From assembly GCF_000377785.1 (NCBI RefSeq), contig NZ_KB898724.1:372001-436000 (forward strand): a stretch of DNA of 64,000 bases, given 5' to 3'. This document shows, in pieces, positions 7,992 to 12,201 of this stretch. Every line of letters starts with the position of its first letter. Position 1 is the first letter of the stretch. Under the pieces are notes generated by a model. The model was not told the DNA's origin and made no database searches. It saw nothing but the letters and a program-made list of their open reading frames with translations. Made by a program: the position numbers and the translations under genes. Origin of the DNA: Thioalkalivibrio sp. ALJ24 (GTDB lineage: Bacteria > Pseudomonadota > Gammaproteobacteria > Ectothiorhodospirales > Ectothiorhodospiraceae).

Positions 7992-9077
7992 GTGTTGGGG
8001 AAAACGGGATCCGGTAGCGACAGGCGTTCGGGGCGGCGGCTTGCGGCGTGGAGCGCCGTGCTCATGCTCGCGCTGGTGTGGTGGGCGGCCGGTTCGCCGG
8101 TGCTGGCGGACGAGCCGGTGCCGGAAGCCCGCGAAACCGAGGGCCTGCAGTTCGACGACACCCCGCGCCGGATCGGCCTGGGTACGCCCGACTGGTTCCA
8201 GCCGAGCTTTCTCGATCTCGAGGAGGATCTGGAGCTGGCGCGCGAGCGCGGGCGCAAGGGACTGGCGGTGTATTTCGGCATGGATGACTGCCCCTACTGC
8301 GAGGCGCTGTTCGAGGAGAACTTCAGTCAGGACGACATCCGTTCCTATCTGTCCGCGCACTTCGACGTGATCGCGATCGACGTGCTGGGGAATCGCGAGG
8401 TGACCACCCTGGAGGGTGAGACCCTGGAAGAAAAGGAATGGGCGCGCAGCCTGGGGCTGAACTTCACGCCGTCGCTGGCGTTTTTCGACGTCGATGGCGA
8501 GGGCATCCATGCGATGCGCGGCTATTATCCCCCTTACCGCTTTCGCGCCCTGCTGGAGTACGTGATCGACCGGCACGACCGGGAGGAGAGCTTCCGCGAG
8601 TACCTGGACCGCGCCGATCCGCCGCCCAAGTTCGATCTCGAGGACATCAACCAGCGGGATTTCTTCGATCCGCCGCCGCACGACCTGGATCGCACCCGGG
8701 AGGCGGGCGAGCGGCCCCTGGTGGTGTTCTTCGAGCGCGAGGCCTGCCACGCCTGCGACATCCTGCATTCCGAGCCGCTGCAGAACCGGCAGGTGCTGGA
8801 GCAGATCTCGTTGATGGACGCGGTGCAGCTGGACATGGGCGACGACGAGACACCGGTGGTCACCCCCGATGGCCGCGAGACCACGGCAGACCGGTGGTCC
8901 CGGGATCTGGACATCCACTGGGCACCCAGTATGGTGTTCTTCGACGAGCAGGGGCAGGAGATCATCCGCCTGGACTCGGTCGCCCATCTCAACCGCGTGC
9001 GCAACGTGATGGAATACGTGCTGACTCGCGGCTACGAGGATTTCGACACCTTCGAGCGCTGGCGCGCCCAGCGCTGA
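7992..9077 (+). CDS. Periplasmic protein with two thioredoxin-fold domains
   Basis: A 361-residue protein starting at a GTG five bases after AGGAGG. A signal peptide runs to SPVLA (about 39). Two thioredoxin-like domains follow. The first (about 70-195) has Cys100-Pro-Tyr-Cys103 and a cis-proline in FTPSLAFFD; the second (about 235-350) has Cys252-His-Ala-Cys255 and WAPSMVFFD. Both resemble the SoxW/DUF255-like single-domain thioredoxins of sulfur oxidisers, here duplicated in one chain. The likely role is periplasmic thiol-disulfide exchange, perhaps passing electrons between its own domains or to a Sox-type partner; the partner is not in view. The next gene starts 14 bases later and may be co-transcribed. 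Confidence 0.8.
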   Translation: MLGKTGSGSDRRSGRRLAAWSAVLMLALVWWAAGSPVLADEPVPEARETEGLQFDDTPRRIGLGTPDWFQPSFLDLEEDLELARERGRKGLAVYFGMDDCPYCEALFEENFSQDDIRSYLSAHFDVIAIDVLGNREVTTLEGETLEEKEWARSLGLNFTPSLAFFDVDGEGIHAMRGYYPPYRFRALLEYVIDRHDREESFREYLDRADPPPKFDLEDINQRDFFDPPPHDLDRTREAGERPLVVFFEREACHACDILHSEPLQNRQVLEQISLMDAVQLDMGDDETPVVTPDGRETTADRWSRDLDIHWAPSMVFFDEQGQEIIRLDSVAHLNRVRNVMEYVLTRGYEDFDTFERWRAQR

Positions 9078-9576: not shown

Positions 9577-9900
9577 TCAGAGTTCGATCGACGTGCCCAG
9601 CTTGCCGCCCAGCACCCGGGCCAGGGTGGTTTCCAGGGACTCGCCGGTGCGGTCATTCTGCCACTGGCCGGCGGCCTCGTCGTAGCCGAAATGCGCCGGG
9701 CCTTCCGGTGAGGACAGCCAGATCTGCTCGGCCGCTTCCTGACGGTTGAGGATTATCTGCGCCCCGTCCTCGAACTCCAGCGTCAGCACGCCGTCGATCA
9801 GATCGATGTCGAGATCGGCCAGTTCGGGATGGTCGCTCAGGCGGGCGTGGATGTCGTCCAGGGTCTGTTCGGCGAACACGGCGAAGGATGGCTGGCTCAT
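9577..9900 (-). CDS. cyaY: CyaY, bacterial frataxin
   Basis: 107 residues, the normal frataxin length. It binds iron and modulates IscS/IscU iron-sulfur cluster assembly in the cytoplasm. The N-terminal acidic helix (EQTLDDIHARLSDHPELADLDID) is the iron-binding ridge. The beta-sheet core has the typical DGVLTLEFEDGAQIILNRQEAAEQIWLSS and a partly kept GPAHFGYDE. The ATG at 9900 is preceded by GGAGACCCC. It converges with the small membrane protein (only 18 bases apart). No isc genes are nearby. Confidence 0.93.
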   Translation of the reverse strand: MSQPSFAVFAEQTLDDIHARLSDHPELADLDIDLIDGVLTLEFEDGAQIILNRQEAAEQIWLSSPEGPAHFGYDEAAGQWQNDRTGESLETTLARVLGGKLGTSIEL

Positions 9901-10346: not shown

Positions 10347-10694
10347 TCAGCCGTTGTCGTCCATGTCGCTGTCGATGTCGCGGCCGGGTACCCAGCCTTG
10401 CGCGCGGGCGCGTTCGATCGCTTCGTTGTGGATGCGCTCGTGGCGCTCGCGCAGGTCTTCCGGCAGGGCCGAGGGGCGCAGGCCGTACTCGTCCCACTTG
10501 GCGTTGACCTGATTCTGCAGGGCCTGGATCTGGCCGATCTCCCAGCCCTCGCAGGTCTGGTCTTCCGGCAGGATGCCGAACACCCAGGCATCGCGGATGA
10601 TGTTGCCGATCGGCGTCATGCCGCCGTAGAGGTCGTTGTCGAGACCGACGTAGCGCCGGTCGCTGCGGATGGATTCTCGATTGGAGGTAGGCAT
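10347..10694 (-). CDS. Conserved small soluble protein of unknown function
   Basis: 115 residues, no membrane segment or signal peptide. Notable segments are YVGLDNDLYGGMTPIGNIIRDAWVFGILPE near residues 15-43 and GWEIGQIQALQNQVNAKWDEYG near 50-71; the rest is charged helix with an acidic end (DIDSDMDDNG). I recall similar short proteins in related sulfur bacteria but know no function. The start MPTSNRES at 10694 is chosen because the frame upstream is an antisense shadow of the Rieske-like gene. It probably forms one transcript with the DUF423 gene. Confidence 0.7.
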   Translation of the reverse strand: MPTSNRESIRSDRRYVGLDNDLYGGMTPIGNIIRDAWVFGILPEDQTCEGWEIGQIQALQNQVNAKWDEYGLRPSALPEDLRERHERIHNEAIERARAQGWVPGRDIDSDMDDNG

Positions 10695-10750
10695 GGCGCT
10701 AGTGTATGCCCACGGTCCCCGCCCGTGAAGGGGCCGACGGAGGTGAGACG

Positions 10751-11335
10751 GTGGTCGAGATGCGTGAACCGGACCCGGGCACCGCGCTGCGGCGCCTGCG
10801 GTTGCGGGTGCTGCTGAAACTGATGGCGCTCGGCGGCGTGGCCGCACTGGCGCTGGCGTTCTCCGTGCAGTTCGTGTCGCTGCCCGGCGGCTCGGCCCCG
10901 CAGCCGCGTACCCTGGATCTGACGGCGATCGAAACCGGCGAGGTGAAGCGGCTGCGCTGGAACGGCCGTCACGTGCTGGTGGTGCATCGCGATGCGAAGC
11001 TGCTGGACTCGCTGGATTCGATCGAGGCGGAGGCCCTGCGCGACCCGCGGGCGCGCCGCGGGCGTCAGCCGGAGGGGCTGGCGCTGCCCGAACGCAGTTT
11101 CGCGCCGGACTGGCTGGTGGTCTACGGCGAAAGCGCGGATCTGGGCTGCGAGCTGGACCTGGTGCATCCGGATGACGCCGATGGCTGGCCCGGCGGCTTC
11201 GAGGATCGCTGTCGCGGCGGACGTTACGACGCCGCCGGGCGGGTGTTCCGCGACCAGCCCGGGGCACGCAACCTGGAGATCCCGGAATACCGCATGCACG
11301 GGGATGGGGAGCGCCTGATCCTCGGCGAGTCCTGA
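10751..11335 (+). CDS. Rieske-fold membrane protein with all four cluster ligands replaced
   Basis: 194 residues from a GTG preceded by GGAGGTGAG. A single membrane helix (about 21-42) is followed by a domain that reads like the cytochrome bc1 Rieske subunit: LDLTAIETGEVKRLRWNGRHVLVVHR, LRDP, APDWLVVYG, then the two cluster loops and GRYDAAGRVF...NLEIPEY. Loop 1, normally CTHLGC, is Ser128-Ala-Asp130-Leu-Gly-Cys133. Loop 2, normally CPCHGS, is Asp152-Arg-Cys154-Arg155-Gly-Gly. The two Cys and two His ligands are gone while both disulfide cysteines (133, 154) remain. It cannot hold a [2Fe-2S] cluster; a structural or assembly role is possible. No petB/petC is nearby. Confidence 0.72.
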   Translation: MVEMREPDPGTALRRLRLRVLLKLMALGGVAALALAFSVQFVSLPGGSAPQPRTLDLTAIETGEVKRLRWNGRHVLVVHRDAKLLDSLDSIEAEALRDPRARRGRQPEGLALPERSFAPDWLVVYGESADLGCELDLVHPDDADGWPGGFEDRCRGGRYDAAGRVFRDQPGARNLEIPEYRMHGDGERLILGES

Positions 11336-11379: not shown

Positions 11380-12201
11380 TCAGGGGTGCTGATCCTCGGT
11401 GTCGCCTTTTGAGCCTTCGGCGTGATCATCGCGTGTGCCGCGATAGAGATCGAAGCGAACGGCGCGGCCTTCGATCGCCGAGACCGGTGTGCCGCCGGGC
11501 AGGGGGTTGGCACCGGCGGGGCGCTTGACCACCACGCGGCCGCGCGTGGCGGGGATCAGCGCGACCAACGTAGCGGCCGCGTCATTCTCCTCGGCATCTT
11601 CTGCCGGGTCGTCCATCAGCGCCTGCAGGACCTGCATGTCCTTCTTGACCGCGGCATTCTTGCGCCGCTGCGGGAACATCGGGTCGAACACCGCCGCGTC
11701 GGCCGGCGCGGGCAGGGCGTCGCCGGTGAACGCCTGCGGGAACAGGTGCACGCGGGCGACGCTGGCGGCCAGCGCCGGATCGCCCGCCTGCGCGGCGCGC
11801 TGCAGGGCATCCTCCAGCAGCAGGGCGACCACCGGGTGGCGCTCGAAGGCGCTGACCCGCCATCCCCGCGCGGCCAGCAGCAGGGTGTCGCGTCCCAGTC
11901 CGGCGGAGGCATCCACCACGTGCGCATCGTCGCCGATGCGTCCGACCGCGCGCACCAGGGTCTCGTGGCTAGCGCGGGCGTGGCGGTAGCCCTGTCGCCC
12001 GCGAACGAAGTCCGGGGTCAGGCGCAGCGGGGTCCTGCCGCCCGGCAGGACCAGTGACAGGCAATCCGCCTCGACTTCCAGAACCAGCACCGCGGGGCCC
12101 GCATGCGCATAAGCGGCGGCGTCCAGGCGCTCCTGCAGGGCCCGTGCGCGTTCGCGGGCGCGCGGGTCGTCCTGCGGGACCGGGCGCAGTTCAAGCGGCA
12201 T
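11380..12201 (-). CDS. rsmJ: RsmJ, 16S rRNA (guanine-1516-N2)-methyltransferase
   Basis: 273 residues. The SAM-binding motif is VDASAGLGRDTLLLAARGWRVSAFERHP, and the family signature FDPMFPQRRKNAAVKKDMQVLQALM is clear. It methylates G1516 of 16S rRNA in the small ribosomal subunit. The start MPLELRPV at 12201 is taken because the upstream extension is low-complexity and antisense to nothing conserved. Towards the C-terminus the chain is extended by an acidic, disordered-looking tail (TRDDHAEGSKGDTEDQHP). It is 14 bases downstream of slyX. Confidence 0.9.
   Translation of the reverse strand: MPLELRPVPQDDPRARERARALQERLDAAAYAHAGPAVLVLEVEADCLSLVLPGGRTPLRLTPDFVRGRQGYRHARASHETLVRAVGRIGDDAHVVDASAGLGRDTLLLAARGWRVSAFERHPVVALLLEDALQRAAQAGDPALAASVARVHLFPQAFTGDALPAPADAAVFDPMFPQRRKNAAVKKDMQVLQALMDDPAEDAEENDAAATLVALIPATRGRVVVKRPAGANPLPGGTPVSAIEGRAVRFDLYRGTRDDHAEGSKGDTEDQHP

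Follow-up and report, generated by a model that had tools for sequence, protein, structure and literature searches.

A conserved Rieske-type protein without cluster ligands in Thioalkalivibrio and its relatives

Can a Rieske protein that has lost every ligand of its [2Fe-2S] cluster still be a working protein, and what might it do? This question is raised by a gene, here called RieskeL, in a 64,000-nucleotide stretch of the Thioalkalivibrio sp. ALJ24 genome (the window; contig NZ_KB898724.1, positions 372,001 to 436,000). A first-pass annotation made from the letters had read the product as a Rieske-fold protein without cluster ligands but with both disulfide cysteines, and had proposed that the folded domain is kept for another role and is not simply decaying. 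It had also described the reading frame and ribosome site as intact, and they are: the open reading frame runs to a stop codon at 11333-11335, and a ribosome-binding-like sequence stands upstream.

10751 to 11335, plus strand: RieskeL, cluster-free Rieske paralogue of 194 amino acids, with a GTG start at 10751.
10739 to 10746, plus strand: ribosome-binding-like GGAGGTGA, read by eye, with 7 nucleotides between GGAGG and GTG.

The Rieske relationship of the window protein, judged by sequence comparison, is far beyond chance. RieskeL matches NCBIfam TIGR01416 (Rieske_proteo) with E 4.4e-24 and 85.4 bits, below the curated cut-off of 97.4 bits, and 37 of 37 cluster-less members scanned match this model at E 0.001. 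A Pfam scan up to E 10 listed no Rieske model (PF00355, Rieske_2) for the window protein, nor did a scan to E 0.1 for the 37 cluster-less members; a Pfam DUF4350 match (E 0.016, 16 bits against a cut-off of 30.4, in one of the 37 members) was taken as chance. The best phmmer match in the PDB was 8smr_C (E 3.3e-23), a bc1 iron-sulfur subunit from Pseudomonas aeruginosa according to the entry title. Structure prediction points to the same family. The AlphaFold2 model of the window protein, built from 37 rows (pLDDT 88.6, pTM 0.72), consists of one helix at residues 9-42, a low-confidence linker at 43-47 and then the head. Judged by their titles, the 50 PDB rows listed by Foldseek all belong to bc1-type complexes or to isolated Rieske proteins, and the first listed match has E 1.5e-15. 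The model aligns with the bc1 Rieske chain of Pseudomonas (8smr_Z) at Z 22.9 (rmsd 4.0, 187 residues) and with 7yr9_A, the Thermochromatium tepidum PetA that is among its two closest solved folds, at Z 22.1 (rmsd 1.5, 141 residues). A divergent member, L072, which is 30% identical to P0001, gave a model of pLDDT 86.8, built from 16 rows that include the ligand-bearing L070; it matches 8smr_Z and 7yr9_A at Z 21.1 and 20.4. Computation therefore supports the Rieske fold named by the first-pass annotation, and places it in the bc1 type.

RieskeL resembles PetA, the bc1 Rieske protein of TIGR01416, in its N-terminal helix, linker, head fold and disulfide cysteines, and the two share the core residues R80, D98, P107, R115, D160, G163-R164-V165, N174 and P178. 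Unlike PetA, the RieskeL family is without all four ligands, usually has no RRxF motif and forms a separate branch; there is no cytochrome b gene near the searched RieskeL loci, and the window protein stays under the TIGR01416 cut-off. A Rieske fold without a cluster has a precedent in NirD, the small subunit of nitrite reductase, and a cluster-free Rieske fold is what we propose for RieskeL. NirD is cytoplasmic and belongs to another Rieske branch.

The changes in RieskeL can be located by alignment in the loops that carry the cluster in normal Rieske proteins.

11132 to 11149, plus strand: former cluster loop 1, S128-A-D130-L-G-C133, placed by alignments.
11204 to 11221, plus strand: former cluster loop 2, D152-R-C154-R155-G-G, placed by alignments.
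11246 to 11275, plus strand: equivalent of the bc1 loop that we take to be the 'Pro loop', F166 to L175, with the family-specific Q169; P170 is kept here.

In the alignment with 8smr_C, S128, D130, D152 and R155 lie under the Cys/His ligand positions and C133 and C154 under the disulfide cysteines. Alignment to the genome's own petA (CTHLGC / CGCHGS) gives the identical register. The two alignments thus agree that all four ligands are replaced, as had been claimed, and none of the four is kept in the window protein. We read 103 distinct sequences, counting identical aligned sequences once; 24 have all four ligands, 79 have none, and there are no intermediates. The searches behind the 79 used profiles made from cluster-less members, which may miss distant ones, and the 79 include L071, counted from a C-terminal fragment (a second L071 fragment without ligand columns was set aside). 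All show the same kind of replacements as the window protein. Position 128 is G in 49, S in 26, A in 3 and D in 1; position 130 is D in 67, A in 5, G in 3, E in 2 and T in 2; position 152 is D in 77 and E in 2; position 155 is R in 72, G in 4, D in 2 and A in 1. C133 and C154 are both retained in 79/79, and the residues flanking Cys154 are charged in most cluster-less members. The residues that are conserved at 90% or more and are unlike those of intact Rieske rows are R19, K23, R73, D152, R155, Y159 and Q169; the comparison for R19 and K23 could draw on 12 and 13 of the 24 intact rows, respectively. In the loop from F166 to L175, P170 occurs in 24 of the 79 cluster-less sequences, the window protein included, versus 24 of 24 intact rows, and P172 is outside the eight commonest residues in cluster-less rows versus present in 19 of 24 intact rows.

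We considered whether the ligands had merely shifted. Since the 79 homologues give the same columns and no His or third Cys is conserved among them at 90% or more, a shifted register is unlikely and was rejected. L070 is a normal ligand-bearing Rieske protein and was removed from the cluster-less family; L206 and L207 are normal Rieske proteins as well. In L132, L133, L134, L179, L171, L173 and L177, acidic 130 and Arg155 are both lost, while D/E152 and both cysteines are kept.

Positions 130 and 155 are, in a normal Rieske protein, the two His ligands of the same iron. In the cluster-less family, an acidic residue at 130 is always accompanied by Arg155 (69/69), and a non-acidic residue at 130 comes without Arg155 in 7 of 10 sequences; L199, L200 and L202, from three genomes of one order, have Ala130 yet keep Arg155. 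The association gives a Fisher p of 4e-8 in a test that ignores relatedness. By corrected mutual information (74 rows), the pair ranks second of 14,549 column pairs, in a run that predates the three exceptions and leaves out L071. On a first tree, the two positions changed together on 4/4 independent paths (p 0.125), and on a second tree, with the exceptions included, on 3/4 paths (p 0.25); in each case, the paths are too few for significance. The covariation is thus supported by computation, and it is suggestive of an acid-Arg salt bridge, D130-R155, that may replace the His-Fe-His link.

The N-terminal part of the protein bears on where the head is placed and how it gets there.

10775 to 10876, plus strand: N-terminal helix, model residues 9-42, taken as a membrane anchor, with conserved R15, R19 and K23.

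This helix is probably a membrane anchor, and the basic N-terminus points to an N-inside topology. Normal Rieske proteins are Tat substrates because they are exported with their cluster. The RRxF-type (twin-arginine) motif is absent from the window protein, and a strict motif of this type near the helix is found in 14 of 19 intact rows versus 2 of 75 cluster-less rows. In L025, one of these two, the motif precedes the likely start; among the five intact rows missing the strict motif, three have KRR-type variants. As Tat serves cluster-loaded Rieske proteins, loss of the motif fits export in the unfolded state, and we infer that the cluster-less proteins use a Sec-type route.

Trees were built without the four ligand columns and without L071, and they are unrooted. 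One branch divides cluster-less from intact rows in both the first tree (58 and 19 rows, support 100/99) and the second (53 and 23 rows, 100/100, with a bootstrap that was not quite settled). This one-branch origin is supported by computation, and a single loss of the cluster ligands is the simplest reading of the unrooted trees. Seven pairs, hand-chosen from 12 sequences with some sequences shared between pairs, were used to estimate dN/dS. The loosest value, 0.259, was that of the window protein and its T. halophilus homologue, a pair in which change is faster in the first 50 codons than in the head, and the other six were 0.121, 0.105, 0.054, 0.067, 0.079 and 0.116. These estimates support purifying selection on RieskeL. 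A RieskeL fragment with one TGA inside was seen at G042:C477:19314-19583, in a genome of the same family that is 82% complete; it is the only paralogue copy seen with an internal stop.

RieskeL is a conserved family and not a one-off, which makes the claim stronger than first stated. The samples of the window's family and order are the same 47 genomes, and P0001 was matched in 46 of them; the T. halophilus homologue is 88% identical. A profile search of the 47 gave 40 high-scoring matches (>170 bits) and the stop-containing fragment in G042, whereas five genomes had only a match of petA-like score (ligands unread) and one had no match. The 37 relative loci come from Thioalkalivibrio, Ectothiorhodospira and MAGs of Chromatiales, Granulosicoccaceae and unplaced Gammaproteobacteria; without the normal Rieske locus L070, 36 cluster-less loci remain, some on short contigs. 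Among 369 genomes sampled evenly across the class, a cluster-less member is present in at least 15, which carry eight family codes; the loci read were the best 30, which gave 12 of these genomes, and a few more, with further searches giving the other three. The order of genome G397 gave matches at E 1e-46 in 26 of its 48 genomes, and the distinct loci read there are cluster-less. A phylum sample of 398 genomes gave three matches at E 1e-44, a threshold that would miss weaker members, and only the window's own was cluster-less. A D-x-C-R DNA pattern was found in 17 of 369 class genomes, with a backwards control that also matched some genomes, and an open reading frame check of these loci recognised the family in L074, L077 and L078 only. 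Searches of the open-licence literature, at the level of abstract openings, gave no description of a cluster-less bc1 Rieske paralogue.

The genome also has a normal petA away from RieskeL. When the 2.8 Mb genome was searched with PF00355, four matches lay above the cut-off, the RieskeL gene not among them. One of the four is petA, which has both loops intact (CTHLGC, CGCHGS) and a twin-arginine stretch at its start, and it adjoins a cytochrome b gene: the following open reading frame, of 469 amino acids, starts at the petA end and matches Cytochrome_B PF00033 at E 2.2e-70. The surroundings of RieskeL are different.

10347 to 10694, minus strand: 115-amino-acid protein (DNDLYGGMTPIGNIIRDAWVFGIL...), divergent from RieskeL, with a homologue in 29/36 cluster-less loci.
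9577 to 9900, minus strand: frataxin CyaY, present in 22/36 cluster-less loci.
11380 to 12201, minus strand: RsmJ-type methyltransferase (PF04445), convergent with RieskeL, present in 31/36 cluster-less loci.

RieskeL is flanked by opposite-strand genes, and therefore it has no operon partner within the window. The 115-amino-acid protein, for which no Pfam or NCBIfam match was found at E 0.01, is a candidate partner or just a neighbour. The 36 cluster-less loci also contain a 2-hydroxyacid dehydrogenase (28), a Bax1-I membrane protein (28), SlyX (19) and a DUF423 protein (18). Among ten class-sample loci, RsmJ is present in 8 and the 115-amino-acid protein in 4. Other cluster-less loci have DUF520, amidase and HAD-hydrolase genes nearby, presumably YajQ, GatA and SerB. 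The genome's own cytochrome b found no match in 56 loci (0.84 Mb) around cluster-less members. The locus is inherited in place, away from bc1 genes. A function based on an operon was rejected, as the neighbours look like a vertically conserved housekeeping region and not a functional pair. The best reading of RieskeL is that of an ancient paralogue of the cytochrome bc1 Rieske protein, passed on mostly by vertical descent, in which the metal site has been rebuilt.

Two further observations concern the neighbourhoods. The window at 7992-9077 (plus strand) encodes a 361-amino-acid protein with Thioredoxin_2 PF13098 at residues 88-188, in two matched stretches, and with two CxxC motifs, CPYC and CHAC; it is followed by a 155-amino-acid protein without a family. 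Of the 36 cluster-less loci, 18 have a match to the first of these proteins and 28 to the second. In a MAG (L066:7246-10537), the paralogue start overlaps the end of a dihydroorotate dehydrogenase gene (PF01180), and Oxidored_molyb and Ferric_reduct genes, which we take to be msrP- and msrQ-like, stand before the paralogue on the other strand.

As the ligands are lost, the fold is kept and relatives have the same form, RieskeL probably has a different, non-electron-carrying job. Conserved orthologues and dN/dS below 0.3 support the earlier idea of a folded, cluster-free domain kept for another role. As a whole, the best explanation, which we regard as reasonably probable, is that RieskeL is a cluster-free, membrane-tethered, non-redox binding or scaffold head. 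The N-terminal helix, N-inside by its charge, would tether the Rieske head in the periplasm, and the head would hold no [2Fe-2S] cluster; with the cofactor absent, RieskeL should not carry electrons. The two-His site would now usually be an Asp/Glu-Arg pair (D130-R155), and one Cys-ligand site would be Asp or Glu (D152). The C133-C154 pair would staple both loops, presumably as a disulfide that forms once the protein has left the cytoplasm by a Sec-type route, since most members have no Tat-like motif. A putative partner would be contacted by two surfaces, the remodelled tip with D152, R155, Y159 and Q169 and the basic side of the helix with R15, R19 and K23, and the head on its flexible tether might work as a non-redox binding or scaffold element.

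We favour this tethered non-redox binding head, and its main rival is a 'dummy' linked to bc1. Because helix, linker and head are all as in bc1 Rieske proteins, some bc1 link may still exist: RieskeL could dock on cytochrome b/c1 or pair with PetA and act as a placeholder, assembly guard or brake. We regard this as doubtful. In its favour are the homology to PetA, which extends over the helix, the short linker and the head, and a second Rieske-type match of petA-like score that accompanies RieskeL in 40 of 41 genomes of the order and in 12 of 12 class genomes with cluster-less best loci, in both cases mostly unread by residue; however, a Rieske match is nothing unusual in the class, where 247 of 369 genomes have one at E 1e-33. 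The missing cytochrome b in the 56 loci and the mostly unkept loop prolines P170 and P172 also speak against it. Moreover, the second His ligand of a bc1 Rieske protein meets the quinol, and this residue is Arg in 72/79. That a cluster-free 'dummy' head is kept in part of the Gammaproteobacteria to occupy or guard a Rieske docking site, in bc1 or another membrane complex, as a redox-silent regulator, seems to us rather unlikely.

Both cysteines are present in 79/79 despite the lost cluster site, and charged residues stand beside Cys154 in most members, as might be expected of a periplasmic thiol switch in which C133-C154 opens and closes and the head reports the redox state of the envelope. 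We find this improbable, because ordinary bc1 Rieske proteins have this Cys pair as a structural disulfide, a role that explains the retention without a switch; furthermore, R155 is lost together with D130 in several lineages, but the cysteines stay.

A different metal or cluster could be bound at new ligands such as the conserved acidic residues, position 152 being Asp/Glu in 79/79 and position 130 acidic in 69/79. A putative immature form of T. tepidum PetA is reported to have zinc chloride at the cluster site (PDB 7yr9; PMC10492824); its head, as proposed for RieskeL, folds without [2Fe-2S]. Unlike RieskeL, the Zn-bound form is a state of a normal PetA, and in our alignment, the 7yr9 sequence keeps the Cys/His ligands. 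A new metal is very hard to credit for RieskeL, since neither a His nor a third Cys reaches 90% conservation and the covariation of 130 with Arg is more in keeping with a salt bridge than with a ligand role. Finally, relaxed constraint alone could yield ligand loss in a decaying petA duplicate, but the open frame, dN/dS of 0.05-0.26 (below 0.3 in 7/7 pairs), orthologues across the order and the same kind of replacements in distant lineages lead us to reject a pseudogene virtually outright, in line with the earlier view that this is not simple decay.

In summary, a cofactor domain has apparently turned cofactor-free, with a ligand pair replaced by an acid and an Arg that covary, and with both disulfide cysteines retained. 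Because this replacement is visible, the family lends itself to testing how a metalloprotein fold withstands the loss of its metal. If the 'dummy' reading were true, RieskeL would be a pseudo-subunit analogous to a pseudokinase. It also follows that profile searches may name such proteins bc1 iron-sulfur subunits, although every cluster ligand is lacking.
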